A stretch of DNA of 52,173 nt from an uncultured Myxococcales bacterium (lineage in GTDB: Bacteria > Myxococcota_A > Polyangia > Polyangiales > Polyangiaceae), in the NCBI GenBank assembly GCA_937902985.1, contig CALFNG010000528.1:1-52173 (forward strand). Direction: 5' to 3'. The position numbers and the translations under genes were made by a program. This document shows positions 22,308 to 40,961 of this stretch, piece by piece. The notes under the pieces are model-generated. The model was not told the DNA's origin and did not search any database. It was given only the letters and a program-made list of their open reading frames with translations. Position 1 is the stretch's first letter. Every line of letters begins with the position of its first letter.

Positions 22308-24650
22308 ATGAGCCGCCTCTTCTTAGCCGCTTGCACCGCGGCGTTTCTTTTCTTCGCCTGCTCCGGCTTGTTCGCGCGGAGTGCCCGCGCCGACACGCTC
22401 GAAGCGCCGGTCGGTGGAAAGCCCTTCGTCCTCGGCGGCGGGCGCGTCGCCTGCATGCCGGGCACAGGCGCGTGGCGGGTCGAGCCGAGCGGGCGCGCGC
22501 TTCGGCCACCCACGTCCGACACGGCGATTGGGGCGGTCGTCGAGCTCAAGGTGGCGGCGAACTTCGGCGAGTGCGCCAAGACGCCGACGATCGTCAGGCT
22601 CGTCGCGACGGCGCCGTGGCCCACGTTCGACGCCTCGTCGATCACCCTCGCGCTCGACGAGGGGCGGCTCGAGGCGAAGGGCCGCGGATTGCGCGGCGCG
22701 CTCGTCACGTGGCCGGTCGAGCCGAGCCGCGCGTCCGACACGTGCCGCGCGGTGAAGAACGACGGACCCGTCGAGACGTGCACCTGGGCCGTTCCCAAGA
22801 CGTCCTCGGCCGACCCGGCCACGAGCACGCTCCGCTGGCAGCCGGCGGGCTCGCAGATCGCGCCCGACGCCGTCTTCTACGACGCCGAAGGCCGCCTCGC
22901 CGTCCCCGAGATGTTCACGATCACGCCGGCCCGCGTCGAGGTCATCGACCTCTTGCCTTCGGACGCGTCCATCGACGTCTCGTCGGGCACCGGGCGCACG
23001 CCCCTCACCCACGAGGAGGCCGTCGTCGGGGTCGATTGCGCCAACGCGCGCTGCAGCCTCGACAGTGGAGAGCTGGTCATGCAAGCGCCGCCGGCCGCCG
23101 TGGTCTCCGTCGACGTGAAGTTTCGCCTCACCGCCCACGTGTTCTTCGTGCGAAAGAACCCGCCCGAGACGCAACCCGTCTTGCGCGTCTCGATCCTGCG
23201 CTGCCCCATGGGCATCGTCTCGGGCGCGGCCCTCCGCGGCGTCGACACGGCGCGCGTCGTCGTCCGCGTCGAGGGCGGGTGCATGAAAGACGTCACGTCG
23301 CTCCGGTTCTTCGTCGGCGGCCGTCAGGCCGAGGTGCTCCAGACCGAGACCGCGAAGGACGCAGCGTACGCCGTGGTGACGGTCGGATCGCTCGAAGCGT
23401 CGGCGATCTCGATCACCGCCGTACGGGGCGAAGGCGACAGCACCGTCGTCGCCGTGGCGCGCACCGAGACGCGCCCGGCCCCCATCGTCCGCACGGTGCT
23501 CCAGATCCCGGGCTACCCGCCGCTCGATTTCATCCCGAACAACCGACCCGCAGTCGTCAACGTCCCAACCGTGAGCGGCGCCGCGCTCACGCTCTTGCCG
23601 ATCGACGACGTGTACGCAGCGACGACCGGCGGCGGCCTCATGACGGCCCAGGGCGACATCAACGCGGTCGGGCTCGTCGCTCTCGTCTTCGGGTACCGGG
23701 TGCCCACGCTCCCCGCTCCGCTCGACCAGGTGAACCTCGGCGTCCTCGAAGACACGCTGCGCCGCCCGGTCAAGGAGGCCAACGTCCCTGCGCCGTTCGG
23801 CCTCTCGGCCTCCGCGATGCCCGACGCCGCCCTCGCCGAGGTCGTGTGCTCGGGAAGCGATAAAGCCGTGGAGCACGCCGTCCCGGGCGTCACGCTGCGC
23901 ATGTCCTTCCGCGATCGCGAGGGGTGCCGCGTCATCATCCACCGCGAACGCCTGTCTCCCGAATACGGGACGCAGAAGCTCACCGTGGAGATCCTCGTCA
24001 ACAAGCTCGACGGGACCTCCAGGCCCGACAGCCACGTCACCCAGACGCTGATCCTCACCGCCGGCCCCGAGCCGCGGATCGCGTGGGTCAAGGGGGTGGT
24101 CGATCCCTACGACCGGGTCATCATACGCCTCTCGCACGTGGCCGACGAAGCGCACTACCTCGGCGCCAATGACCTCATCAACGGCGCGCCCGCGGTGCAG
24201 TGGAACATCCTCTTCGGCACGGGGCACGTGCGCCTCTACGCGACGACCGCGATCCCCACGGGCCTCTATCGCTTCGGCAACTCCAGCGGCAGCGGCATCC
24301 TCTCGCTGAGCCTCGCGGTCATCTCGCGGCTCACGTGGCTCGACTCCGACGGGCACGAGGGCCTGCTCGGTCTCGAGGCGGGCATCATGGCGTTCGGCTT
24401 CACGAACTCGTCCGCGCAATCACTGACCGAGGTCGGCATCGTCGCGGGCGTGGGCCTGAGCATCCCGCTCGCAGGAGCGGGCTCCCCGACGCAGGCGTCA
24501 ATCAATCTCCACGCCTGGTTCGAGCAGCGAATCAGCGAACCCACGACCCCCGCCGCGACGGCCACGATGGTCAACCCCATCCCCGCCAGCGCCCGGGCGG
24601 TCATCATCGGCCCGAGCATCTCCTTCGGCAACGTCGGCACCACGTTCTAG
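22308..24650 (+). CDS. Large secreted protein of unknown function with C-terminal barrel-like region
   Basis: A 780-residue protein. The ATG at 22308 gives a signal peptide (MSRLFLAACTAAFLFFACSG...ARADT); the longer upstream frame overlaps trmO and is a shadow. The body is beta-rich, with paired cysteines (VDCANARCSLD; ILRCPMG and EGGC), suggesting disulfide-bonded Ig-like domains. The last 170 residues alternate hydrophobic and polar residues (HVRLYATTAIPTG, GILSLSLAVISRLTWLD, GLLGLEAGIMAFGF) and end SFGNVGTTF with a terminal Phe, which resembles an outer-membrane barrel. I do not recognise the family. It follows trmO by 20 nt on the same strand. Confidence 0.7.
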   Translation: MSRLFLAACTAAFLFFACSGLFARSARADTLEAPVGGKPFVLGGGRVACMPGTGAWRVEPSGRALRPPTSDTAIGAVVELKVAANFGECAKTPTIVRLVATAPWPTFDASSITLALDEGRLEAKGRGLRGALVTWPVEPSRASDTCRAVKNDGPVETCTWAVPKTSSADPATSTLRWQPAGSQIAPDAVFYDAEGRLAVPEMFTITPARVEVIDLLPSDASIDVSSGTGRTPLTHEEAVVGVDCANARCSLDSGELVMQAPPAAVVSVDVKFRLTAHVFFVRKNPPETQPVLRVSILRCPMGIVSGAALRGVDTARVVVRVEGGCMKDVTSLRFFVGGRQAEVLQTETAKDAAYAVVTVGSLEASAISITAVRGEGDSTVVAVARTETRPAPIVRTVLQIPGYPPLDFIPNNRPAVVNVPTVSGAALTLLPIDDVYAATTGGGLMTAQGDINAVGLVALVFGYRVPTLPAPLDQVNLGVLEDTLRRPVKEANVPAPFGLSASAMPDAALAEVVCSGSDKAVEHAVPGVTLRMSFRDREGCRVIIHRERLSPEYGTQKLTVEILVNKLDGTSRPDSHVTQTLILTAGPEPRIAWVKGVVDPYDRVIIRLSHVADEAHYLGANDLINGAPAVQWNILFGTGHVRLYATTAIPTGLYRFGNSSGSGILSLSLAVISRLTWLDSDGHEGLLGLEAGIMAFGFTNSSAQSLTEVGIVAGVGLSIPLAGAGSPTQASINLHAWFEQRISEPTTPAATATMVNPIPASARAVIIGPSISFGNVGTTF

Positions 24651-24678: not shown

Positions 24679-24727
24679 GAGAGAGAGAGATTGGCCGCGG
24701 AGGCGCAGAGGGCACAGAGCAGAGAAG
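24679..24727 (+). repeat. Dispersed repeat, copy A
   Basis: Begins GAGAGAGAGATTGGCCGC and continues with imperfect 9-bp units of the GCAGAGGGC type. It lies 28 bp after the stop of the large secreted protein. It forms an inverted pair with copy B in the 220-bp intergenic space between convergent genes. Confidence 0.85.
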
Positions 24728-24805: not shown

Positions 24806-24860
24806 AATGCTCTGCTCTCTCCGCGGCTCTGCGGCCAATCTCGCGCTCGGTCTTTCGAGC
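24806..24860 (-). repeat. Dispersed repeat, copy B (inverted)
   Basis: On the minus strand it reads GCGAGATTGGCCGCAGAG followed by decayed 9-bp units. It is the inverted partner of copy A and lies just past the stop of the FHA-GGDEF gene. The A-B pair could fold into a long hairpin between two convergent genes. Confidence 0.8.
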
Positions 24861-24870
24861 GCCGCAGCGC

Positions 24871-25812
24871 CTAGATCGAGACGCGGTTCTTGCCGGCTCT
24901 CTTGGCTCGGTACATGGCCTCGTCGGCGGCCTGGAAGAGGGCGCGGGCGTCGGGGGCGTCGCCCGGGATGGTGGCTACGCCGCAGCTCAGGCCTGGCCTC
25001 AGGCGGACGCCGCGGTGCTCGTAGGTGTGGGCGGCCACGGCGGCGCGGAGCTCTTCGGCGATGGCCACCGCGTCGGTCTTGAGGACCGCGGGGAAGGCGG
25101 CGGCGAACTCGTCGCCGCCGAAGCGCGTCGCGAACCCACGTGCGCCAATGACGCGATCCATGACCCGGCCCGTCTCGCCGATCGCGAACGCGCCCATCGC
25201 GTGGCCGTGCGTGTCGTTGATCGCCTTGACCCCGTCCATGTCCATCACGATGAGGCTCAGCGCGGGCACGGTCCCGGCCTGAACGGCGGCCACGCTCGAC
25301 TCGAGCTGCGCGTCGAAGCGACGGCGCACCCAGAGACCGCTGAGGTCGTCGGTCGAGAGGAGCCGCTCGATCTCCGCCGCCTGGGCGTCGCGGAGGGCGT
25401 CTTTCTGCATCTCGATGACGGTCTTGCCGATGAAGATCCGGTCGCCCGGCTTGAGAATGGCCCCGGCGCACGGCTCCCCGTTGAGGATCGTGCCGTTGGT
25501 GCTACCGAGATCGATGATCGCCCACTCGTCGCAGCCGCGGTCTTCGATACGCGCGTGCCGCCATGACACGTTGTCGTCGTGGAGCGGCAGCTCGCAGCTC
25601 GGATCGCGCCCCGTCTCGACCGACTGGCGCAGGACGACGCGCTTGCCGACGTCGGGCCCGAGGACGACCGCGAGCGAGGGCGCCACGGTCTTGCCAAGCT
25701 CGAGCTGAAGGGCCTCGCGCAGGCCGTCGCCTTCGCCCGAGAACGGCATCGTCTTCAGGCGCGCCCCCCGCCGCGCCCGTCCCCCGGTCTTGTGGCGCGG
25801 GTCATCGGCCAT
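24871..25812 (-). CDS. FHA-GGDEF diguanylate cyclase
   Basis: A 313-residue cytosolic protein. The FHA domain (about 50-135) has GRDPSCELPL, SWRHARI and DLGSTNGT, the phosphothreonine-binding loops. The C-terminal GGDEF domain (about 150-313) has DMDGVKAINDTHGH and an intact RFGGDEFAAAF active site, so c-di-GMP synthesis is expected. No RxxD inhibitory site is seen five residues before GGDEF. The FHA domain suggests control by a Ser/Thr kinase. It is divergent from recQ. A second start at 25749 (MPFSGEG) is possible. Confidence 0.92.
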   Translation of the reverse strand: MADDPRHKTGGRARRGARLKTMPFSGEGDGLREALQLELGKTVAPSLAVVLGPDVGKRVVLRQSVETGRDPSCELPLHDDNVSWRHARIEDRGCDEWAIIDLGSTNGTILNGEPCAGAILKPGDRIFIGKTVIEMQKDALRDAQAAEIERLLSTDDLSGLWVRRRFDAQLESSVAAVQAGTVPALSLIVMDMDGVKAINDTHGHAMGAFAIGETGRVMDRVIGARGFATRFGGDEFAAAFPAVLKTDAVAIAEELRAAVAAHTYEHRGVRLRPGLSCGVATIPGDAPDARALFQAADEAMYRAKRAGKNRVSI

Positions 25813-25991: not shown

Positions 25992-27962
25992 TTGCCCCTC
26001 GACGCCCCTCCCCCGCCTTCGACGCTGCCGGCTCGGCCGGATCCGCTCGCAGAGGTGCTCGCCCGGTCGTTCGGGCTGGAAAAGTTTCGGCCGTGGCAGC
26101 GGGAAGCCATTGACGCGCTTCTCGGGGGGAGCGGCCGCGTGCTCGTGGTGGCGCCCACCGGCGGCGGCAAGTCGCTCACGTATCAGGTGCCCGCCGTCGT
26201 GCTGGAGGGCGTCACCCTCGTGCTCTCGCCGCTCGTGGCGCTCATGGAGGATCAAGTGCGCGCGCTCGAGGCGCGCGGCGTCGCGGCGACGTTCCTCGCC
26301 GCGACGCTCGACTTCGACACGCGGCGGCAGCGCGAGTCGGCCATGCTGCGCGGGGAGTACAAGATCGTCTACGCGGCGCCGGAGCGGCTCGCGTCGGACG
26401 CGTTCGTGGGCATGCTGAGCCGCTGCAACGTGCAGCTCGTGGCGGTCGACGAGGCCCACTGCATCGCCCAGTGGGGACACGACTTTCGCCCCGACTACCG
26501 GCGTATCGGCGCCCTGCTCGAGCGCCTCCGACCGCCGCGCGTGCTCGCGTGCACGGCCACCGCCACGCCCGAAGTGCGCCGCGAGATCCGCGAACAGCTT
26601 CGGCTCGGCGACGACTGCGCCGAGGTGTTGCGGGGCTTCGCGCGCCCGAACCTGCACCTCTCGGCGCGCAACGTCGAGGGCGTCGCCGAGGCGCGCACCG
26701 CCGTGTTCGAGGCCCTGGCGTCGGCCCTCGGCGAACCGGCGGCCCCGCGGGGTGGCGCGATCGTGTACGCCGCGACCCGGCGCCAGACGGAGCAGTGGGC
26801 CGAGACGCTGCGCGGGCGCGGCTGGAACGCGGCGGCGTACCACGCGGGCATGCCGGCGGACGAGAGATCGCGGGTGGCGTCGCGCTTCGCCGACCGCACG
26901 CTGGCCCTCGTCGTGGCCACGAACGCGTTCGGCATGGGCATCGACCGGTCGGACATTCGAGCCGTGGTCCACGTGCAGCCGCCGTCGTCGATCGAGGCGT
27001 ATTACCAGGAGGTCGGCCGGGCCGGGCGCGACGACGCCGAAGCGCTCGGCCTCTTGCTCTGCTCGGGCGCCGACGTGGGCTTGCGGCGTCGCCTGGTGAC
27101 GACCGGCACCGACGGGGGCGCCGCGCCTCCGGAGCTCGCCGCCAAGGCCTGGGGGCTCTTTCGGGACCTCCTCAGGTACCTCGATGCGCGGACGTGTCGC
27201 CACGACTTCATCTTGCGCTACTTTGGCGACGAGCAAGAGCTCCTCGGCGGGTGCGGTCACTGCGACGTGTGCGCGGCGATCGACCTGGCCGTAGACCAGG
27301 GACCCGCCGACGAGAACGACGTCGAGTCCGAGGCGACGGCGAGGGTCGTGCGAATGGCGCTGTCGGCCGTGGCACGCGCACGCCAGCGAGCGGGCCTCGT
27401 TGCGGTCGCCGAGATGCTCCGCGGCGTCGACGACGAGCGCACGCGACGCTTCGGGTTCACCCAGCTCTCGACGTTCGGGCTCCTTCGCGATCGCTCGCCG
27501 ACCTGGATCATGGATCTGATGCGCGGCTTGCTCGCCGCCGGCTGGATCGACCTCACGCCGACGGACCATCCGGTGCCGCTCCTCACGCGCTCGGGCGCCG
27601 ACGCGATGCGGGCCACGGGCGCCTTGCGGTTCGCCCTTCCGATCGAGCGCAGCACTGCCCGCGCGCGCAAAGGTTCGCCGGGGCGCATCAACGGGTCGCG
27701 AGCGTCGGGCGAGGCGAGCGAGGCGCTGTCCGCGCTCGACGCCGTGAGCCGCGAGCGCTTCGACAAGCTTCGCGCCCATCGGGCCCAGGCCGCGAAGACG
27801 CGGGGCGTCCCTGCCTACGTGGTCGCGCTCGACCGCACGCTCATCGAGATGGCGAGGCGCTCGCCGCGGACGCGCGCCGAGCTGCTCGAGGTCTTCGGCA
27901 TGGGGCCGGCGCGTGTCGAGGCCTATGGAGACGGGTTTCTCGAGGTGCTCGGGGGCCCCTGA
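25992..27962 (+). CDS. recQ: ATP-dependent DNA helicase RecQ
   Basis: A 656-residue 3'-5' helicase. Motif 0 is FGLEKFRPWQREAI, Walker A is APTGGGKS, motif II is VDEAHCIAQWGHDFRPDY, and motif VI is QEVGRAGRD. The RecQ-Ct zinc site follows as CRHDFILRYFG...GGCGHCDVC. A winged-helix region comes next (about 450-540), and the last 75 residues form an HRDC-like domain (FDKLRAHRAQ ... VFGMGPARVEAYG). The predicted start is a TTG with a Pro-rich lead; the true start could be a few codons downstream. The GGDEF gene is divergent. Confidence 0.93.
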   Translation: MPLDAPPPPSTLPARPDPLAEVLARSFGLEKFRPWQREAIDALLGGSGRVLVVAPTGGGKSLTYQVPAVVLEGVTLVLSPLVALMEDQVRALEARGVAATFLAATLDFDTRRQRESAMLRGEYKIVYAAPERLASDAFVGMLSRCNVQLVAVDEAHCIAQWGHDFRPDYRRIGALLERLRPPRVLACTATATPEVRREIREQLRLGDDCAEVLRGFARPNLHLSARNVEGVAEARTAVFEALASALGEPAAPRGGAIVYAATRRQTEQWAETLRGRGWNAAAYHAGMPADERSRVASRFADRTLALVVATNAFGMGIDRSDIRAVVHVQPPSSIEAYYQEVGRAGRDDAEALGLLLCSGADVGLRRRLVTTGTDGGAAPPELAAKAWGLFRDLLRYLDARTCRHDFILRYFGDEQELLGGCGHCDVCAAIDLAVDQGPADENDVESEATARVVRMALSAVARARQRAGLVAVAEMLRGVDDERTRRFGFTQLSTFGLLRDRSPTWIMDLMRGLLAAGWIDLTPTDHPVPLLTRSGADAMRATGALRFALPIERSTARARKGSPGRINGSRASGEASEALSALDAVSRERFDKLRAHRAQAAKTRGVPAYVVALDRTLIEMARRSPRTRAELLEVFGMGPARVEAYGDGFLEVLGGP

Positions 27963-27990: not shown

Positions 27991-28046
27991 TTCGAGAGAG
28001 AGAGATTGGCCGCAGAGGGCGCGGAGGGCGCAGAGCCGAGATGAGA
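27991..28046 (+). repeat. Dispersed repeat, copy C
   Basis: Reads GAGAGAGATTGGCCGCAGAG and continues with 9-bp units GGCGCGGAG / GGCGCAGAG, nearly identical to copy D. It lies about 30 bp after the recQ stop. A weak, decayed inverted arm (TCTCTGCGTACGCTCCG) follows near 28114. Confidence 0.85.
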
Positions 28047-38236: not shown

Positions 38237-38581
38237 TCAGGGGAGCGCGTTGTCATGGCTCGAGACCAGGAGCCGGTCCGCGTCGTCGGGTAGCAGCGCT
38301 CCGGGATGGGCGTCTTCGACCGCCTTCGCTTGGCGAAGCCAGATGCCCGCCGTCCCACGGTCGCCCAGCGCCGCCAGCGTGAGCCCCCGGTAAAGCGCGT
38401 ACTCCGCCCGGCGAGCCTCGTCCCAGGATCGACTCTCCCGCTCGAGCGACGCCAGCTCTTGCTTCGCCTCCGGATAGTGCCCGCTCCGAAACGCATCTTC
38501 TCCATCGCTCAGCGGCCCGGCGCACCCACCGGCCCCGAACGCAAGCGCAAGCAAAACGGTGACAGACTCGCGGCGCATCAC
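38237..38581 (-). CDS. Small TPR-like lipoprotein
   Basis: A 114-residue protein with a lipoprotein signal (MMRRESVTVLLALAFGAGGC) followed by two helical TPR-like repeats: DGEDAFRSGHYPEAKQELAS and AEYALYRGLTLAALGD. It would be anchored in a membrane as a small scaffold. It is convergent with the FliR-like gene (17 bp between stops) and divergent from the GxxExxY gene. Confidence 0.7.
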   Translation of the reverse strand: MMRRESVTVLLALAFGAGGCAGPLSDGEDAFRSGHYPEAKQELASLERESRSWDEARRAEYALYRGLTLAALGDRGTAGIWLRQAKAVEDAHPGALLPDDADRLLVSSHDNALP

Positions 38582-38657: not shown

Positions 38658-38703
38658 GGAGAAGAGAGATTGGCCGCAGAGGGCGCAGAGGGCGCAGAGA
38701 TGA
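38658..38703 (+). repeat. Dispersed repeat, copy D (left arm of GxxExxY element)
   Basis: Reads AGAGAGATTGGCCGCAGAGG, then 9-bp units GCGCAGAGG GCGCAGAG, ending at the ATG of the GxxExxY gene. In frame it would encode AAEGAEGAE, sometimes annotated as part of such proteins. It is inverted relative to copy E. Confidence 0.9.
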
Positions 38704-39107
38704 ATGGACTGAGATCCGAGCCAGACGAGGGGTTGAATCGCCTCACCGAGATGGTCATCGGGGCTGCGATGGAAGTCCATCGCGAGCTCGGGCCCGGGCT
38801 GCTCGAGACATTCTACGAGCAAGCGCTCTGCGTCGAGTTGGCCGCGCAGGGAATCGCATTTTCCCGGCAGGTGGGCGTACGCGTTTTCTACAAGGGCACG
38901 CCCATAGGGGAGTCCCGCATGGACATCGTGGTCGCAGAGAGCCTTTTGTTGGAGCTAAAGGCCAGCGACGGACACAGTCCACTGCACATGGCGCAAGTGC
39001 TCTCGTACCTGAAGACGAGCCGGTTGCCGCTGGGCCTGCTGATCAACTTCAACGTGCCCGTACTCCGCCGCGGCATAAAGCGAGTCGTAAGGACCCGCTC
39101 ACCCTGA
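38700..39107 (+). CDS. GxxExxY protein (PD-(D/E)XK nuclease-fold, PF13366)
   Basis: A 135-residue protein with the name-giving motif GLLETFY in GPGLLETFYEQAL, preceded by VIGAAMEVHRELG. The nuclease core SRMDIVVAESLLLELKA has the D...ExK metal-binding residues of the PD-(D/E)XK superfamily, and LLINFNVPVLRRGIKRVV is the conserved end. Its start codon directly adjoins repeat copy D, and its stop is 3 bp before inverted copy E, so repeats and gene form one 500-bp unit. An earlier in-frame start within the repeat (GEERLAAEGAEGAE) is an artefact. No biochemical function is established for the family. Confidence 0.88.
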   Translation: MNGLRSEPDEGLNRLTEMVIGAAMEVHRELGPGLLETFYEQALCVELAAQGIAFSRQVGVRVFYKGTPIGESRMDIVVAESLLLELKASDGHSPLHMAQVLSYLKTSRLPLGLLINFNVPVLRRGIKRVVRTRSP

Positions 39108-39110
39108 AAC

Positions 39111-39160
39111 CCTCTGCGCGCTCTGCGCCCTCTGCGGCTAATCTCTCTCTCTCAAAGGCG
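39111..39160 (-). repeat. Dispersed repeat, copy E (right arm of GxxExxY element)
   Basis: On the minus strand it reads GAGAGAGAGATTAGCCGCAG followed by AGGGCGCAGAGCGCGCAGAGG. It differs from the other copies by ATTAG for ATTGG, which creates the TAG stop codon of hflX. The last five or so residues of HflX are encoded by the repeat. Confidence 0.9.
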
Positions 39161-40961
39161 AGACAATCGGGCGCGGCGGGCGGACGCGCTTGCCGGCGGC
39201 GCGGAGCATGCCGTCGAGGGAGGTGATCTGGCGGGTGTCGTCTGCGAGCGCGGGTTCTTCGGGCTCGTCGGGCTCGACGTCGACGGGGTCGGGCTCCACG
39301 CCGGGGCCCTTGGCGCTGGCTTCCCACTTGCCGGCGAGCTCCTGGGCGATGCGGTCGATGAGGGGGCGCGTGGTGGCGCGCACGCTGGCGCTCACGAACG
39401 AGGCGTCGGGGTACTGGCGCTCGAGGACCCGGCGGCGGAGCGTCTCGATGGCGTCGATCTTGTTGAAGACCAGGAGCCTCGGGAGCTCGCCGAGGTGCAG
39501 GTCTTCGAGCACCTCGTTCACCGTCTCGATGTGATCGGCGTACGCGTCGTCGCTGGCGTCGACCACGTGGAGCAAGAGGTCCGCGTCCGCCGCTTCTTCG
39601 AAGGTGGCGCGGAACGCGGCGAAGAGATCTTTCGGCAGGTGCCGAATGAAGCCCACGGTGTCGGTGATCACGACCTCGCGCTCTCCCCACCCCGCCCAGC
39701 CGCAGCGCAGGATGCGCGAGCGCGTGTCGAGGGTCGCGAACAGCTTGTCTTCGACGAGGGCGTCGGCGCCCGTCATCGTGTTGAGGAGCGAGCTCTTGCC
39801 GGCGTTCGTGTAGCCCACGATGGCCACCGTCGGCACGGCGCCGCGCGTTCGCCGGCGGCGCCGCTGCTCGCGCTGCTTGGCGAGCTGCTTCAGCTGGTGC
39901 TCCAGGTGCGTGATGCGCTCCTTGGCGCGACGGCGGCCGATCTCGATCTTGGTCTCGCCCGGACCGCGACCGCCGATGCCGCCGGTGAGGCGCGACAGGC
40001 TGTCGTCTTTCTGTCCGAGGCGCGGCATCGCGTACTTCAGCTGCGCGAGCTCGACCTGCAGCTTGCCGTCTCGGCCCGCGGCGCGCTGCGCGAAGATGTC
40101 GAGAATGAGCTGCGTGCGATCGATGATCTTGAGGTCCGTTCGCTTGGCAATGGCGCTCGCCTGCGCGGGCGAGAGCTCGCGATCGAGCACGAGCACCGCC
40201 GCGTCGAGCTCGATGGCGCGCACCACCACGTCCTCGAGCTTGCCGATCCCCATCACGTATTTCGGGTCGATGTGCTCGCGCATCTGGAGCACCGAGTCGA
40301 CCGTCGCGACGCCCGCGGTGCGCGCCAGCTCCCGGAGCTCGCGAAGGCTCTCTTCGGCGTCGCGCATCGCCTGCGGGCCGCGGCTCTTGTCGCCGACGTG
40401 AACGAGAATGGCGCGGCCGTCCTTCGCCGTGACCTCGCGCGATCGCGCGCGGCGCGCGAACTCGGCTTCGAGGTCGCCCATGAGCCGGGCCACGTCGACG
40501 CGCGGCTGCGGGAGCGGGTCGGGCCCCATCTCGCGGTACGTCGCGCCGCCGTCGCTGCCGGGCATGCCAGCCACGCCGGGGACGCCGGGGACGTTGTGCG
40601 CCCACGCGATCGCGCGCGGCTCGCCCGACGGGTTCAGGAGAATCGCGGCGACGAGATCGAGGCGCAGGCGAACGAGATCGACCAGATCGTCGCGCGTCAG
40701 CGGCTCGCCGCGCAGATGCGTGTGCACGAGGCGCAGCCCGCGGAAGCGACCCTCGGCGGCCCTCAGGCGCCCGACGTCGGGCAGCATGAGCTTGGCGGCG
40801 TCGCCCACGACCACCGAATCGACCTGGCCGGAGCGGTGAATGAGCACGCCGACCTGCCGCCCCGTCTCGAGCGATACGGCCGCCAGCGATCGCGTCAGCT
40901 CGGGGGTGGAGATGTCATCGGCCGGCACGCGGCGCCGGTAAAGGCGCTCGAGCGCACGCAA
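39138..40961 (-). CDS. hflX: Long-form GTPase HflX
   Basis: A ribosome-associated GTPase that splits stalled or heat-damaged ribosomes. HflX motifs: MGIGKLEDVVVRA, GGIGGRGPGETKIEIGRRR, G1 GYTNAGKSSLL, G3 DTVGFIRHLP, G4 FNKID. At 607 residues it is longer than E. coli HflX (426). The N-terminal 130 residues include VGVLIHRSGQVDSV and HTHLRGEPLTRDD, resembling a JAB/RadC metal site, and the C-terminus has an acidic tail. The conserved segment VHGHTAGLPPSTLRALERLY begins upstream of the TTG at 40961, reaching an in-frame TAG at 41013-41015 without a standard start; ATC at 41003 with AGG 8 nt upstream is the best candidate. The stop lies in repeat copy E. Confidence 0.9.
   Translation of the reverse strand: MRALERLYRRRVPADDISTPELTRSLAAVSLETGRQVGVLIHRSGQVDSVVVGDAAKLMLPDVGRLRAAEGRFRGLRLVHTHLRGEPLTRDDLVDLVRLRLDLVAAILLNPSGEPRAIAWAHNVPGVPGVAGMPGSDGGATYREMGPDPLPQPRVDVARLMGDLEAEFARRARSREVTAKDGRAILVHVGDKSRGPQAMRDAEESLRELRELARTAGVATVDSVLQMREHIDPKYVMGIGKLEDVVVRAIELDAAVLVLDRELSPAQASAIAKRTDLKIIDRTQLILDIFAQRAAGRDGKLQVELAQLKYAMPRLGQKDDSLSRLTGGIGGRGPGETKIEIGRRRAKERITHLEHQLKQLAKQREQRRRRRTRGAVPTVAIVGYTNAGKSSLLNTMTGADALVEDKLFATLDTRSRILRCGWAGWGEREVVITDTVGFIRHLPKDLFAAFRATFEEAADADLLLHVVDASDDAYADHIETVNEVLEDLHLGELPRLLVFNKIDAIETLRRRVLERQYPDASFVSASVRATTRPLIDRIAQELAGKWEASAKGPGVEPDPVDVEPDEPEEPALADDTRQITSLDGMLRAAGKRVRPPRPIVSPLRERD

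Follow-up and report, generated by a model that had tools for sequence, protein, structure and literature searches.

GxxExxY nuclease genes and their dispersed inverted repeats: an apparent RAYT-like system based on a PD-(D/E)XK fold

In RAYT (REP-associated tyrosine transposase, TnpA-REP) systems, a single-gene nuclease lies between inverted copies of its own repeat, and the repeats are dispersed through intergenic DNA mostly as inverted doublets, the REPINs (PMC3116915, PMC2817692). The locus described here shares both features and resembles these systems further in that one gene copy accompanies many repeats and that plasmid and phage homologues are few. However, RAYTs are HUH/Y1 transposases whereas GxxExxY proteins are PD-(D/E)XK nucleases, and REP sequences are single palindromes with a GTAG/CGTC tag whereas the arms of GxxExxY genes are non-palindromic arrays of 8-9 bp units in which no head hairpin was found. 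The GxxExxY system consequently resembles RAYT/REPIN without being a member of it, having neither the HUH domain nor the palindromic REP. Comparison with the MITEs of classical DNA transposons is also instructive, since in both cases short gene-less copies have the same terminal inverted repeats as a copy that carries the gene. Here, however, the partner is not a DDE transposase, the ends are arrays of tandem units, the interiors are mostly unrelated, and no target-site duplication was found by eye at the doublets examined.

Two other systems invite comparison. The intervening sequences (IVS) of 23S rRNA, with their S23 (bAvd-like) genes, likewise place a small ORF between inverted ends, and the two families are often found together in one genome; the proteins nevertheless belong to another family, their arms have 7-bp units, and the classical IVS resides in rRNA, where the gene lies inside an RNA stem that is cut out by RNase III (PMC4990558). 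The cyanobacterial STRRs are intergenic, hairpin-forming 7-bp tandem repeats (PMC2670836); they share the short tandem units and, compared by layout, stand nearer to the arms of S23 genes than to those of GxxExxY genes. In the open-access journal literature searched, GxxExxY comes up in two papers, each time just in passing, no link of PF13366/PDDEXK_3 or GxxExxY to repeats was found, and the 7-bp arrays beside S23 genes are given no explanation.

The window, that is, the whole stretch of 52,173 nucleotides that was analysed, contains a gene (38700..39107, plus strand) for a 135-aa GxxExxY protein of PD-(D/E)XK nuclease fold. Its ORF matches TIGR04256 (GxxExxY; E 1.2e-39, 135.3 bits against a curated cut-off of 35) and Pfam PDDEXK_3 (PF13366; E 4.4e-40, 137.1 bits against a curated cut-off of 22). 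These were the only Pfam and NCBIfam matches, with no HUH/Y1 tyrosine transposase domain among them, and an S23 (PF05635) four-helix bundle was ruled out because the Pfam match was solely to PDDEXK_3. The AlphaFold2 model confidently shows a PD-(D/E)XK fold (pLDDT 92.1, pTM 0.84) whose best match in the PDB is SSO0001 (Cas4-like; Z 9.3), with further matches to lambda exonuclease, RecB/AddB-type nuclease domains and archaeal Hjc; the fold neighbours of this model are DNA nucleases. The predicted catalytic residues E36, D75, E85 and K87 are all intact. Among 81 proteins, E36, which is near the search peptide used to pick the loci, is conserved in 80, and D75, E85 and K87, which are away from that peptide, are conserved in all 81. 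One orthologue pair gave a dN of 0.07 against a dS of 0.46. Homologues are scarce on mobile replicons, and plasmids and phages, considered as a source of empty sites, provided them in only 8 of 72,556 plasmid records and in one virus (two records).

The gene is enclosed by two members of a repeat family. The repeat 20-mer has five matches in the window with at most two mismatches (A at 24683, C at 27998 and D at 38662 on the plus strand, B at 24846 and E at 39149 on the minus strand), where 100 dinucleotide shuffles predict 0, and the five copies reported in an earlier note on this DNA are thus borne out. Left arm D (38662..38699, plus strand) comprises the head AAGAGAGATTGGC followed by three inward 9-bp units with a CGCAGAG core, and right arm E (39112..39149, minus strand) is an inverted copy of D, with the head GAGAGAGATTAGC and three units. 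The match score of D against inverted E is 67, the shuffle maximum being 28. That note had also described an exact bracketing of the gene by this pair, which is the case: the ATG at 38700 abuts D, and in E the last CTCTGCG unit begins about 4 bp past the TGA at 39105-39107. Copies A (24683..24720, plus strand; 33 bp past a stop at 24650) and B (24809..24846, minus strand; its end 25 bp away from the stop codon, at 24871, of a minus-strand gene) form the left and right arms of a gene-less convergent doublet, and copy C (27998..28036, plus strand) is a single arm, 36 bp past a stop at 27962. Arm E overlaps the 3' end of an HflX-like gene and includes its stop codon. The proposed preference for positions directly after stop codons therefore applies to four of the five copies (A, B, C and E); no stop codon precedes D.

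When the count was extended to the source genome (8.3 Mb), as the earlier note had suggested, about 51 copies of the repeat were found (0 with a reversed-pattern control), together with exactly one GxxExxY gene, the one between D and E. A convergent partner was present within 700 bp for 34 of the 51 arms (median spacing 128 bp) and a divergent one for only 7, an arrangement that matches the inverted doublets of REPINs (PMC3116915). Among the 34 doublet interiors listed, some of them counted from each arm, 14 resemble one another as a single family, and most of the others are unrelated. Planctomycetota genomes without a GxxExxY gene also have gene-less doublets, 115-140 bp in size. A hairpin in the head, preceding GATTGG, was considered for the 51 copies and rejected, the folding z of 0.15 being no better than that of the control (-0.19).

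The HflX-like GTPase gene (39138..40961, minus strand; Pfam GTP-bdg_N, GTP-bdg_M and MMR_HSR1) adjoins the element on one side, and a small lipoprotein-like ORF (38237..38581, minus strand), syntenic in a same-genus genome, lies on the other. Arm E encodes the last codons of the HflX-like gene (..LRERD stop), while the same-genus orthologue ends without the insert; since these codons and the stop come from the inserted repeat, the C-terminus is altered relative to that orthologue. In G105, the sole same-genus genome compared, the two flanking genes are adjacent, about 75 bp apart and without the insert, and the genome has 0 repeats and no GxxExxY gene. The locus being unoccupied there, the element either came into the source lineage or was lost from that of G105. 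Across 144 further genomes of the order, G105 among them, hardly any repeats were found, with at most three weak matches in each. Comparison of empty and filled sites, also suggested earlier, thus yielded an unoccupied orthologous locus but no exact base-level empty site: the G105 locus is about 78% identical to that of the window and gives no alignment over the intergenic DNA, synteny around A/B and C is broken in the same genome, and no clean site was found in 16 genomes of an Anabaena-like genus. No target-site duplication was seen by eye at the doublets of genome G000, where no clean empty site was found, and no transposition intermediate or cut site was seen in the analysed loci. One site of the Anabaena-like genus exists in a gene-bearing form, in one genome as arms only, and in another with a tandem-duplicated right arm; it is a hotspot of insertion.

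Bracketing of the GxxExxY gene by inverted repeats is general across most of the bacterial phyla sampled. We scanned 80 GxxExxY loci from species-representative genomes of many phyla (Planctomycetota, Verrucomicrobiota, Chloroflexota, Cyanobacteria, Acidobacteriota, Bacteroidota, Proteobacteria and others). A conserved peptide served to select them and similarity to rank them, so that they are not a random sample of the family. Inverted flanks exceeded 100 shuffles at 62 of the 78 testable loci, detectable arms being missing at about 20% of the genes; in 485 control windows of equal geometry the 99th percentile score was 28, and one window reached 36. Within the order of the source genome, other genera carry GxxExxY genes of their own, and at 20 of 30 loci the inverted flanks outscored 30 shuffles, the sequence being particular to each locus. 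The arms have a common architecture, in which a short head (consensus TTNAAC; TTGGC here) is followed by two to four inward CRCNRAG units placed 1-2 nt apart; most have three units and a TTNAAC-like head and are separated by about 20-30 bp from the matched coding part. The inward motif CRCNRAG-N(1-2)-CRCNRAG was present on both sides of 59 of the 80 genes and on at least one side of 73, and in 40 of 1308 control windows.

Arms and proteins vary together. The arm distance is 0.69 within a locus against 3.14 between different loci. Furthermore, unit composition tracks protein distance over 61 loci (Mantel r 0.25, p 0.0005), a correlation that stays the same after GC is controlled for, and in 30 of the 61 the closest protein neighbour has the same unit type, where 29% is expected. 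In a survey of 246 genomes of the Planctomycetota, the phylum of a Planctomycetales genome treated below, both the arm profile and the gene family were searched, with arm counts that saturate at 29 per genome. The family is carried by 112 of the 246. At least three arms were found in 81 genomes with the gene and 12 without, and fewer arms in 31 with and 122 without, an odds ratio of 26.6 (Fisher p 5e-26) that is uncorrected for phylogeny and assembly quality. Ten of the 246 had at least five arms and lacked a PF13366 gene, and a more sensitive search of these ten found no GxxExxY gene. In one of the ten, an arm-rich Planctomycetota genome, the arms bracket a DUF2971 gene (L303:715-1600). As a side observation, two genomes of one genus each contain GxxExxY paralogues (L033, L038, L057 and L059) with arms of either CGGGGAG/CGGGAAG or CGCCAAG type, each gene having its own matching arms on both sides.

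The same architecture was recovered with a second protein family. We tested 2234 ORFs for inverted flanks in 800 kb of sequence, some of it picked for lying around known genes, from a complete Planctomycetales genome. Those scoring at least 38 included four RAYT-like, three GxxExxY and two S23 genes, along with antisense ORFs and three unexplained matches; the RAYT-like genes, assigned by eye from motifs, carry palindromic arms and served as positive control. In genomes that hold GxxExxY, 28 of 30 S23 (PF05635) genes are bracketed by inverted arrays above shuffles (L189-L218), and S23 genes with such arrays were found in many phyla, outside rRNA. Their arms have 7-bp units in 23 of 26 cases, as against a period of 8-9 for GxxExxY arms, and none of the 30 shows the GxxExxY motif. 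That two families in the same genomes each own a unit type favours a specific protein-repeat partnership over a generic artefact. Note however that S23 is not a nuclease family, so bracketing may not need a nuclease.

Overall, the nuclease gene, its cognate inverted arms and the dispersed gene-less doublets constitute one anatomical and evolutionary unit. We consider it probable that in this unit a PD-(D/E)XK nuclease, unrelated to RAYT, works with its repeat in the manner of RAYT/REPIN. The likeness to RAYT/REP put forward in the earlier note stands as regards bracketing across phyla, convergent doublets, co-occurrence, arm-protein covariation and the recovery of RAYT in the scan, and fails as regards the HUH domain and the palindromic REP. 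We infer that the GxxExxY protein mobilises the repeat. The nuclease would recognise the tandem-unit array, probably in a hairpin or cruciform that a convergent doublet could form during replication, and cutting there would lead to doublets being copied into new sites, often just past genes. Doublets would then be non-autonomous offspring of the gene-bearing copy, and arm-bearing genomes without the gene would be those in which it has since been lost. The earlier note had reasoned that abundant repeats in genomes without the gene, combined with no association between the two, would refute mobilisation by the protein. Repeats without the gene do occur in the ten arm-only genomes, and arms can enclose a different gene (DUF2971), but the association is strong (odds ratio about 27). 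Since such orphan repeats could have been left behind by a gene that was lost once they had spread, the hypothesis is weakened and not refuted.

The main rival, which we regard as rather unlikely, is that the arms belong to an element that spreads through host replication or repair, or through a different enzyme, with GxxExxY, S23 and DUF2971 genes as chance cargo. S23 genes bracketed alike without a nuclease, the DUF2971 gene between GxxExxY-type arms and the ten genomes with arms and no gene are all consistent with it. Random cargo, however, predicts no family-specific units, and the absence of the GxxExxY motif from S23 arms, with their period of 7 instead of 8-9, argues against it, as do the way arm type follows protein phylogeny and the co-occurrence of arms and gene.

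Two further readings dispense with mobilisation of DNA by the protein, and we give little credence to either. Were the arms binding sites for autoregulation and a regulon, copied by ordinary duplication and without mobility, their closeness to the gene, tens of bp away on either side, and the intergenic or gene-end location of the dispersed copies in the window would be accounted for; downstream arms are, however, as regular as upstream ones, the window copies lie mostly 3' of genes, gene-less doublets have unrelated interiors, and the repeat belongs to one species and is missing from the sole same-genus genome compared. It is comparably improbable that convergent arms are transcribed as hairpins and that the protein or RNase III acts on the RNA. 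The S23 IVS, a gene in an RNase III-excised RNA stem (PMC4990558), offers a precedent, and the bracketed layout recurs at S23 genes outside rRNA, but the modelled GxxExxY fold is of DNA-nuclease type, the arms are tandem units that are often imperfectly complementary, and genomic spread would still require a DNA step.

The GxxExxY nuclease with its own dispersed repeats therefore looks like an unrecognised RAYT-like system. A widespread family for which a function has so far been lacking gains a concrete candidate substrate and a testable role, and the comparison suggests that nucleases of unrelated folds came to be paired with dispersed repeats on more than one occasion. Abundant short repeats of bacteria, among them the 7-bp arrays adjoining S23 genes, may also have their source here. 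More tentatively, at somewhat less than an even chance, there may be a general, HUH-independent class of single-gene elements in which each family owns its tandem-unit ends (8-9 bp CRCNRAG units for GxxExxY, 7-bp units for S23/bAvd-like genes) and which may generate many unexplained short tandem and dispersed repeats of bacteria, cyanobacterial STRRs included. One convergent arm pair of the source genome (L012:1490-2130) encloses no gene and instead about 550 bp of an irregular, degenerate GCGAGCGCCCTTGCCGGCGG-like repeat.
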